In this document: piece by piece, positions 34,179-37,697 of the stretch
How positions within the stretch are numbered: position 1 is the first letter of the stretch
How the letters are laid out: each line of letters begins with the position of its first letter
From: Methanobacteriaceae archaeon
GTDB taxonomy: Archaea > Methanobacteriota > Methanobacteria > Methanobacteriales > Methanobacteriaceae
Direction: 5' to 3'
Assembly (NCBI GenBank): GCA_020854915.1
Contig: JAHKLT010000072.1
Span: 1-38,052 of the forward strand
DNA: 38,052 nucleotides
Notes under the pieces: model-generated
Seen by the model: only the letters and a program-made list of their open reading frames with translations
The model's database searches: none
What the model was told of the DNA's origin: nothing
Made by a program: the position numbers and the translations under genes

Positions 34179-35219
34179 TTATTCTTTAATTCTTATAACA
34201 GAAATAATTCTAGTTAGGCTTCTGTGCATTTTTATTTCATATTTTTCAACAAGTTCAAAACCAATTTTATCCAACATATTATTTAAATCTAGATAATGAG
34301 GACTTGCCATACACAAAAAAGCATTATGTTTCATGTTTTTATAAATAGACTCTAAAAATTGATAAAAAATTTTATCACTACTAATTCCCATAGTAGAAGT
34401 TGATATACCATAAGGAGGATCAGTAACAACTGCATCCACTTTTTCATACATTTTTAATTCCCTAACATCAACATGAAAAGTTTTATAATCAGAAATATCA
34501 CAATAATCTAAGTTTATACCTGTACCATTTTTCATTTTCCAATTAACATCAGAGCCTAAAACTTTAGAACCAATTAATCCAGCTTCAATTAAAATTCCAC
34601 CAGTACCACAAAAAGGATCTAATAAAAGCTGATTCTTTTTAATTCTAGATAAATTTACCATACAACGAGCTAATTTTGGACTCATAGAACCTGGATAAAA
34701 AAATGGTCTTTTATGAGGCTTCATATCCTGAAAATGTTTCTTATTTAATTTGAATTTTTCAATAGCTATAAAAACATCATTTTCAAAAACAAGCACCCTA
34801 ATAAGTGATGAAGGATTCTCAAGTTTGACTTTAATATTATCTTTATTAAATGAATTTAAAATTAAATAACCAATATCCTTTTCATAAGAAACTGTATCAA
34901 TCCCACTATTAAATCTTTTAACCCTAACAGCAAAATTCTCATCAATATATTGATTCCAATCTATATTCAATATATCTTTTTTAAAGTTATTAATATCTGA
35001 TTTAATAATTATTTCATCAATTTCATGCGTATATGCAAGTCTTTCAACTAAACTTTTATAATTATCGTAAAAATCTTCATTATCCAAAAAATCAAGCAAA
35101 ACTAATCCACTACATATTTTATTTACATTAGCTGGAATATTTTCACATTCCAAAACTGCATTAAGTTCTGCAATCGGCAATTTATCATGTTCTTGAGATT
35201 GTATTAATAATAATTCCAT
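34179..35219 (-). CDS. tRNA (guanine(10)-N2)-dimethyltransferase (Trm-G10)
   Basis: 346 residues. N-terminal THUMP/NFLD-like domain (about 1-165) for tRNA binding and C-terminal SAM methyltransferase: LLDPFCGTGGILIEAG (about 196-211) and the catalytic DPPY (267-270). The HRSLTRIISVIR end is typical. Makes m2G/m2,2G at position 10 of tRNAs in archaea. 346 residues is full length. AAGGTAAGGA precedes the ATG. Confidence 0.9.
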   Translation of the reverse strand: MELLLIQSQEHDKLPIAELNAVLECENIPANVNKICSGLVLLDFLDNEDFYDNYKSLVERLAYTHEIDEIIIKSDINNFKKDILNIDWNQYIDENFAVRVKRFNSGIDTVSYEKDIGYLILNSFNKDNIKVKLENPSSLIRVLVFENDVFIAIEKFKLNKKHFQDMKPHKRPFFYPGSMSPKLARCMVNLSRIKKNQLLLDPFCGTGGILIEAGLIGSKVLGSDVNWKMKNGTGINLDYCDISDYKTFHVDVRELKMYEKVDAVVTDPPYGISTSTMGISSDKIFYQFLESIYKNMKHNAFLCMASPHYLDLNNMLDKIGFELVEKYEIKMHRSLTRIISVIRIKE

Positions 35220-36362: not shown

Positions 36363-36370
36363 AAAAAAAA
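36363..36370 (-). terminator. U-run after C/D sRNA
   Basis: On the minus strand the outer stem of the sRNA is followed at once by a U8 run, the arrangement of an intrinsic-like terminator. It probably sets the 3' end of the PAN-sRNA transcript. Confidence 0.5.
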
Positions 36371-36440
36371 TATTAAGCCTCAGTTCGCCCATCATTCATC
36401 ACATATCAGAGCTCATAGGGTTCATCATTGGCTTAATATT
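36369..36440 (-). ncRNA. C/D box sRNA guiding 2'-O-methylation
   Basis: On the minus strand, in order: outer stem AATATTAAGCC (36440-36430); box C ATGATGA (36428-36422); 12-nt guide ACCCTATGAGCT; box D' CTGA (36409-36406); spacer TAT; box C' GTGATGA (36402-36396); 12-nt guide ATGATGGGCGAA; box D CTGA (36383-36380); stem GGCTTAATATT (36379-36369), which is perfectly complementary to the first. All four boxes fit archaeal consensus and both guides have the standard 12-nt length. By the D+5 rule, the guide before box D would pair with UUCGCCCAUUA, which I recall in archaeal 23S helix 92. The gene starts 6 bases after the PAN stop codon, so it may be processed from that mRNA. Confidence 0.93.
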
Positions 36441-36446
36441 AAAAAG

Positions 36447-37697
36447 TTAACCAAACATTACTCCAGCTTCCTTTTTATATTCCTCATCGTGTTCAACTTG
36501 CATGATTTTATCAACAGCATCCATAAAATCAGCTACAAGAACTTCATCCCTTTTTTCTCTAATAGCAAACATTCCAGCTTCAGTACAAATAGCTTTTAAA
36601 TCAGCACCAGAAGCACCTTCAGTTAATGTAGAAAGTAAATCAATTTCTGCTTCATCTGCTAATGACATGTTTTTAGTATGAATTTTAAGGATTTCTCTTC
36701 TACCATCTTCATTAGGAAGAGGCACTTCTATGAACCTATCAAATCTTCCAGGTCTTAAAAGAGCAGGATCTAAAATATCTGGCCTATTAGTTGCAGCAAC
36801 TATACCAATATCTCCACGAGAATCAAATCCATCTAATTCAGCCAATAATTGCATCAATGTTCTTTGAACCTCTCTATCGCCACTAGTTGAGCTTTTAAGT
36901 CTTTTTGCAGCTACAGCATCAATTTCATCAATGAAAATAATAGATGGAGCCTTTTCTTTTGCAAGTTCAAAAACTTCCCTTACAAGTCTTGCACCTTCAC
37001 CAATATATTTTTTAACAAATTCAGATGCAACTATTTTAATAAATGTTGCATTTGTTTCATTAGCAACTGCTTTTGCAAGTAAAGTTTTTCCTGTTCCAGG
37101 AGGACCATATAACAATATACCTTTTGGAGGTTCAATACCAATTTTTTCAAAAAGTTCAGGTTCTTTTAAAGGTAATTCAACTGTCTCTTTAATTTCTACA
37201 ACTTGATCTTCTAATCCACCAATTTTTCCATAAGAAATACTAGGTTTTTCTTCAACTTCCATTCCAGAAACATTAGGATCTTTTTCTGAAGGTAAAACTT
37301 CAACAACTCCAAAAGTTTGCTGATTTAAAGCAACCCTTGAACCTGGAATAAGTAGATCTTCATCCAAAAATTTTGAATAGTTTATTAAGAAATTAGGACC
37401 TGTACTACTTTTTACTGTCATTCTAGAATCATCTAATATTTCTGTAATTGTCGCAAGAACTAATGGAGGAGATCTAAATCTTTCTACTTCTCCTCTTAAT
37501 GATTTTGTTTCACGTTCTAATCGGATTTTTTCGTTTTCGGTTAGAACTTTATCTTTTTCTAATTTTCTAACTTTCCACATTAAATTACGTTTAGTTTTGG
37601 AATTTTCTTCTTTTAATAAATTAATCTCTTCTTTAAGACTTTCAATTTTATTAACTAATTGTTGATTAGAAGAATTTTCCATATCATTTTTTTCCAT
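36447..37697 (-). CDS. pan: Proteasome-activating nucleotidase (PAN)
   Basis: 416 residues. An N-terminal coiled coil (about 11-72), an OB domain (about 76-140), and an AAA+ ATPase: Walker A GPPGTGKT (198-205), Walker B IIFIDEID (253-260), Arg-finger region LLRPGRFDR (313-321). It unfolds substrates and feeds them to the 20S proteasome. The C-terminus is MFG instead of the HbYX motif with Tyr; the middle residue is Phe. The start ATG follows CGGATGATGTGTA. The sRNA lies just after its stop. Neither proteasome subunit gene is in the window. Confidence 0.96.

Follow-up and report, generated by a model that had tools for sequence, protein, structure and literature searches.

The 38,052-nt stretch of Methanobacteriaceae DNA analysed here (the window) carries on its minus strand the gene for the proteasome-activating nucleotidase, pan (36447..37697; TIGR01242, 626 bits against a cut-off of 500), and directly 3' of it a 72-nt C/D box sRNA gene that extends from outer stem to outer stem over positions 36369..36440, also on the minus strand. 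The pan stop codon, TAA, occupies 36449-36447 and lies six bases from the sRNA stem. Read along the minus strand from 36440 to 36369, the order is AATATTAAGCC A ATGATGA ACCCTATGAGCT CTGA TAT GTGATGA ATGATGGGCGAA CTGA GGCTTAATATT, followed by a T run. These elements correspond to the 5' arm of the outer stem (AATATTAAGCC, 36430..36440), a C box that fits RUGAUGA (36422..36428), a D' guide of 12 nt (ACCCTATGAGCT, 36410..36421), the D' box (36406..36409), a 3-nt D'-C' spacer, the C' box (36396..36402), a D guide of 12 nt (ATGATGGGCGAA, 36384..36395), the D box (36380..36383) and the 3' arm of the stem (GGCTTAATATT, 36369..36379), which pairs with the 5' arm at 11 of 11 positions. The eight-U run at 36363..36370, eight T on the sense strand from 36370 to 36363, shares the last two stem bases and is the probable transcript end. 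The initial annotation had described all of this, from the four boxes, the two 12-nt guides and the 3-nt spacer to the perfect 11-bp stem, the U8 run and the start six bases after the pan stop, and we recovered every element as given there.

The layout is that of archaeal C/D box sRNAs: the C and D boxes lie near the ends and are joined by a terminal stem, internal D' and C' boxes are separated by a short spacer, and the guides, in the range of ~10-12 nt, are complementary to stable RNA with the target nucleotide at box+5. A search for the four-box pattern gives a single occurrence in the window and none in 200 dinucleotide shuffles. A scan of the window sRNA against Rfam at gathering thresholds gave no match, while relaxing the thresholds brings up archaeal C/D families as the top-scoring ones, with sR1 first. 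Judged from its sequence, the element is an archaeal C/D box methylation guide, and a chance origin is excluded.

To follow the gene through related genomes, pan was taken from 139 genomes of the family and the sequence downstream of it inspected in about 60, covering most genera; one further useful locus (L001) came from a PAN protein search of GTDB contigs. The same sRNA core is present in all of the downstream stretches long enough to judge, and 50 of these sequences (alignment A1) were used to build a covariance model, which matches the window sRNA at 36367-36441 with 101 bits. Across A1 the TGATGA of both the C and the C' box and the CTGA of both the D' and the D box are invariant, and the D'-C' spacer measures 3-5 nt, reaching about 7 nt in G139. 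In a sample of the phylum, the model finds matches in 140 of the 152 genomes of the class and in 19 of 20 genera, including three further families. The genomes that lack a match are nearly all incomplete; one of them, G003, is listed as 95% complete and likewise yielded no full-length pan. The sRNA again lies 3' of pan in the 13 genomes that represent the other three families, so that the persistence of this arrangement in related genomes, put forward in the initial annotation as a check, holds at every locus inspected in four families. The distance from the stop codon to the C box ranges from 12 to 287 nt overall and from 14 to 23 nt in all deeper families. The pan-homologue loci of other archaea were also searched for the sRNA and none was found there, the best other match having an E-value of 5.6. 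The outer stem covaries in relatives, with double changes at 10 of its 11 pairs and a covariation score of 0.324 against a shuffled mean of 0.153; none of 500 shuffles scored as well, and no offset of a sliding stem partner comes near the observed score.

The D' guide, which the initial annotation could not place but proposed to align with the rRNAs and tRNAs, implies the target AGCUCAUAGGGU. In its own 1.66 Mb genome the only exact match to this target is the sRNA gene itself, and there are three matches with one mismatch. One of these is the intron-containing elongator tRNA-Met(CAU), where the guide forms 12 pairs, one of them G-U, with GGCTCATAGGGT (G000:C44:24548-24559), making it the sole stable RNA among the exact and one-mismatch matches. 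The remaining two were discarded as targets, since both lie in apparently protein-coding DNA. Base 5 of the guide, counted from box D', lies opposite C34, the wobble base of the CAU anticodon. The duplex spans the 5' exon-intron junction, with 8 exon pairs and 4 intron pairs (GGGU); the mature tRNA would retain 8 of the 12 pairs, and the duplex energy is -20.7 kcal/mol with the precursor versus -10.7 kcal/mol with the mature loop. As read from the sequence, exon CUCA (32-35) pairs with intron UGGG in a bulge-helix-bulge with the bulges UAG and AUA, which implies cuts after A37 and before A38 and an intron of 35 nt, and it is from these cuts that the last four target bases, GGGU, are taken to be intronic. 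A free-energy fold of the pre-tRNA did not reproduce the exact bulge-helix-bulge, and an ARAGORN run did not call the intron-containing tRNA-Met.

Guide and target are both strongly conserved. GCUCAUAGGG is present at the exon-intron junction of tRNA-Met in all relatives inspected, as are the intron bases GGG, and the core of the D' guide, CCCTATGAGC, is invariant in A1 and retained in the deeper families. Substitutions in the guide fall only at its two ends, with a T at the 5' end in G009 and G139 and an A or G next to D' in G120, G102 and G103, and these end positions are where pairing matters least. Because hardly any variation exists in either partner, no compensatory guide-target changes are available for scoring. 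Against 16S and 23S rRNA, for which E. coli represented the archaeal 16S and the 5' half of the 23S, the D' guide has no site of at least nine pairs. With C34 at +5 and a pairing that takes in intron bases, the guide corresponds to the sR49 / sR-tMet functional type, and on this sequence evidence the main target of the sRNA, left unplaced by the initial annotation, is most likely C34 of elongator pre-tRNA-Met. The intron of this tRNA (G000:C44:24548-24596; L168-L236, L280-L292) is strongly conserved throughout the family beyond the bases paired by the guide, for example in GCTCTGACT in mid-intron, a constraint that the guide does not explain in full.

For the D guide, the window genome itself offers no rRNA, none having been assembled in this MAG, and its rRNA targets therefore derive from the few relatives with readable rRNA and from E. 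coli. The core of the guide, TGATGGGCGA, is invariant in A1. The initial annotation had paired it with the 23S A-loop and assigned the target to C2558 in E. coli numbering; the numbering is correct, and the window guide does form 11 contiguous pairs, one of them G-U, starting at box D, with the site UUCGCCCAUUA, seen in several relatives with readable rRNA, which places C2558 at D+5. The pairing nevertheless does not single out this site, given that 16S C1402 fits equally well and that the 23S match is lost in two species. In the same register, the 16S site ACCGCCCGUCA, exact in the Methanobrevibacter-like 16S fragments inspected, has C1402 at D+5 and forms 9 contiguous pairs (positions 3-11, one G-U) that begin at the third base from box D and reach the threshold of at least nine pairs; the duplex energies are equal, at -17.2 kcal/mol for 16S and -17.1 kcal/mol for 23S. 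In a random control with the same rule over ~4.9 kb of rRNA, 15% of composition-matched guides reached at least one rRNA site and 1.4% reached two, so that an rRNA match alone is weak evidence. In a separate observation, the 23S A-loop helix of G006 and G007 (genus g5; L331, L332 near base 97) is altered to GGGGUUGUUCACCC, with both sides of one helix 92 pair changed.

These assignments have to be weighed against several alternatives. That the D' guide addresses some other target and matches tRNA-Met by chance is extremely improbable, considering that this tRNA alone among the exact and one-mismatch matches is a stable RNA, that the D'+5 base is the very wobble C methylated by the same machinery in other archaea, and that the intronic GGG is kept in all relatives inspected. 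The choice for the D guide is closer. An action on 23S C2558, with the 16S match arising by chance, has in its favour the longer run of pairs from box D, the standing of the A-loop as a methylation hotspot in all domains (PMC4644070), and guide base 2, which is always A, pairs with 23S U2555 and faces 16S C1399 unpaired, the single point in the guide itself that favours 23S. Against it, the two species G006 and G007 have the A-loop sequence UUCACCC, with a mismatch beside the target that weakens the 23S duplex to -11.7 kcal/mol, yet their guides are unchanged; guide base 1, which adjoins box D, is in many genomes a U, unable to pair with 23S U2554; and guide base G10 only wobbles with the 23S site, where A would pair better, yet it is constant in A1. 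Moreover, the archaeal A-loop sites on record are U2552, G2553 and C2556 (PMC4644070, PMC2584109), with C2558 not among them, while the equivalent of 16S C1402 is methylated in Pyrococcus abyssi (Cm1376), yeast (Cm1639) and human (Cm1703) (PMC7005279, Table 4). We thus regard a 23S target in place of the 16S one as unlikely, and 16S C1402 as the probable target of the D guide ahead of C2558, although both may be used. At guide bases 8 and 10, where the two sites differ by a transition, the guide has U and G, which alone among the four bases can pair with either site, and both are constant in all aligned genomes; that one sRNA serves three translation centres, the tRNA-Met wobble base and, through its single D guide, both 16S C1402 and 23S C2558, is nonetheless a speculative reading that we hold to be rather improbable.

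Gaps as short as that between pan and the sRNA in the window leave no space for a promoter between them, and archaeal C/D sRNAs are commonly processed from neighbouring transcripts, the box motifs and protection by proteins being sufficient for maturation (PMC7994747). Release from the pan transcript, the probable host, is hence the default reading and, from the gene arrangement, a likely one, but regulation cannot be concluded from the placement alone. An sRNA-specific promoter within the 3' end of pan would find a candidate in TATAAAAA, which lies at a plausible distance about 35 nt upstream of the stem in the window; these bases are, however, pan codons, and a TATA-like motif appears in only 7 of the 38 short-gap genomes, with no consistent element, so that we consider an independent promoter improbable. 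The initial annotation also raised a link between rRNA modification and the expression of a proteasome regulator; one form of it would have the sRNA regulate pan expression, or the reverse, with the placement joining RNA modification to protein turnover. The position 3' of pan is indeed kept in four families over the full range of gaps, in spite of differing downstream neighbours, but most archaeal C/D sRNA genes simply ride on neighbouring transcripts (PMC7994747), and the gap exceeds 200 nt in some genera, which suggests that close coupling is not required. We find no support for a regulatory connection with the proteasome and estimate it to be very improbable.

The surroundings of the locus vary more than its core. 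In two deeper families a convergent reading frame leaves ~75 nt 3' of pan, and the sRNA fills that space; this frame, of ~240-256 aa (L267 862-1593, L269 886-1611, L277 718-1488), begins right after the sRNA and sits between it and the PH-like gene that directly follows the sRNA in the window and in Methanobrevibacter. With the convergent frame present in some lineages, what lies downstream of the sRNA varies, but its association with pan does not. Two genes downstream of the sRNA, in the window (34179-35219, minus strand) and also in several relatives, lies a methyltransferase of the TIGR01177 family (341 bits, cut-off 317), possibly a tRNA G10 enzyme. In many genus g9 genomes there is a further, more divergent pan-like gene (about 60-64% identity), in some of them forming a tandem pair, and in some Methanobrevibacter-like contigs (L333, L334, L335; G037, G060, G073) the 3' end of the 16S rRNA lies on the same strand within a few kb of the pan-sRNA locus.

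Considered together, the observations suggest an sRNA with two working guides, which we regard as a likely reading on the basis of sequence comparison: the D' guide would address C34 of pre-tRNA-Met and the D guide most likely 16S C1402, with the sRNA itself most likely excised from the pan transcript. According to Grosjean et al. (PMC2584109), Cm34 in the tRNA-Met of archaea is introduced under the guidance of a separate C/D sRNA whose pairing extends into the intron, so that methylation has to precede splicing; in human elongator tRNA-Met, the same base is methylated by box C/D RNPs (PMC6601510). The window sRNA agrees closely with this scheme. It would be cut from the 3' end of the pan transcript and protected by its bound proteins and outer stem, and L7Ae, Nop5 and fibrillarin would assemble on it and 2'-O-methylate C34 while the intron is present. 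As the D' duplex would cover the cleavage site together with all of the 5' strand in the bulge-helix-bulge, binding of the sRNP would preclude that of the splicing enzyme and vice versa, and methylation would be followed by splicing. The D guide would direct 2'-O-methylation of 16S C1402, in the decoding centre at the P site, with 23S C2558 as a possible additional or alternative target.

The class Methanobacteria, including the gut and rumen methanogens, thereby gains a specific candidate guide for the methionine anticodon, encoded by a gene whose position after pan is preserved across four families. In the literature searched, we found no published account of such a guide in gut or rumen methanogens; the supplement to PMC2584109, where 18 Cm34 guide candidates are listed, may already include Methanobacteria members. 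For the conserved Cm at 16S C1402, the sRNA is likewise a candidate guide in archaea: its predicted target is the same nucleotide as Cm1376 of P. abyssi, for which PMC7005279 names no guide, Cm1639 of yeast and Cm1703 of human.

Among known guide RNAs, the closest in function are sR49 of Pyrococcus (Rfam RF01303) and the Haloferax volcanii guide for Cm34 of pre-tRNA-Met (Joardar et al., 2011, as cited in PMC6601510), which likewise are separate C/D sRNA genes rather than intronic ones and pair with elongator pre-tRNA-Met across the exon-intron junction, with C34 at +5 and methylation before splicing (PMC2584109). The window sRNA nevertheless falls outside the sR49 sequence family, scoring 14.8 bits with the RF01303 model, for which the gathering cut-off is 50, and unlike the halobacterial Cm34 guides, which have more degenerate boxes and a D'-C' spacer of 19-21 nt (PMC2584109), it has canonical boxes and a spacer of 3 nt. 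In four-box layout and size it resembles sR1 (RF01152) and other archaeal C/D families, but its score with sR1 (40.1 bits, E-value 4e-9) is below the curated cut-off of 45 and the guides differ. With the tRNA-Trp intron guide (sR50 type) it shares a C/D-guided Cm34 on the pre-tRNA before splicing, although that guide resides within the tRNA intron and the one described here after pan. The tRNA-targeting C/D sRNAs of Pyrobaculum (summarised in PMC7994747 from Lui et al., 2018) likewise direct one guide at a tRNA, in some cases at its wobble position; there, according to the same summary, the second guide is without a target, whereas here it is invariant and fits rRNA, which suggests that a tRNA-directed guide RNA can also bear a working rRNA guide, contrary to the Pyrobaculum pattern. 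By its sequence, the window sRNA is thus a new and well-supported member of the known archaeal C/D class, unusual in combining a guide for a tRNA with one for rRNA.
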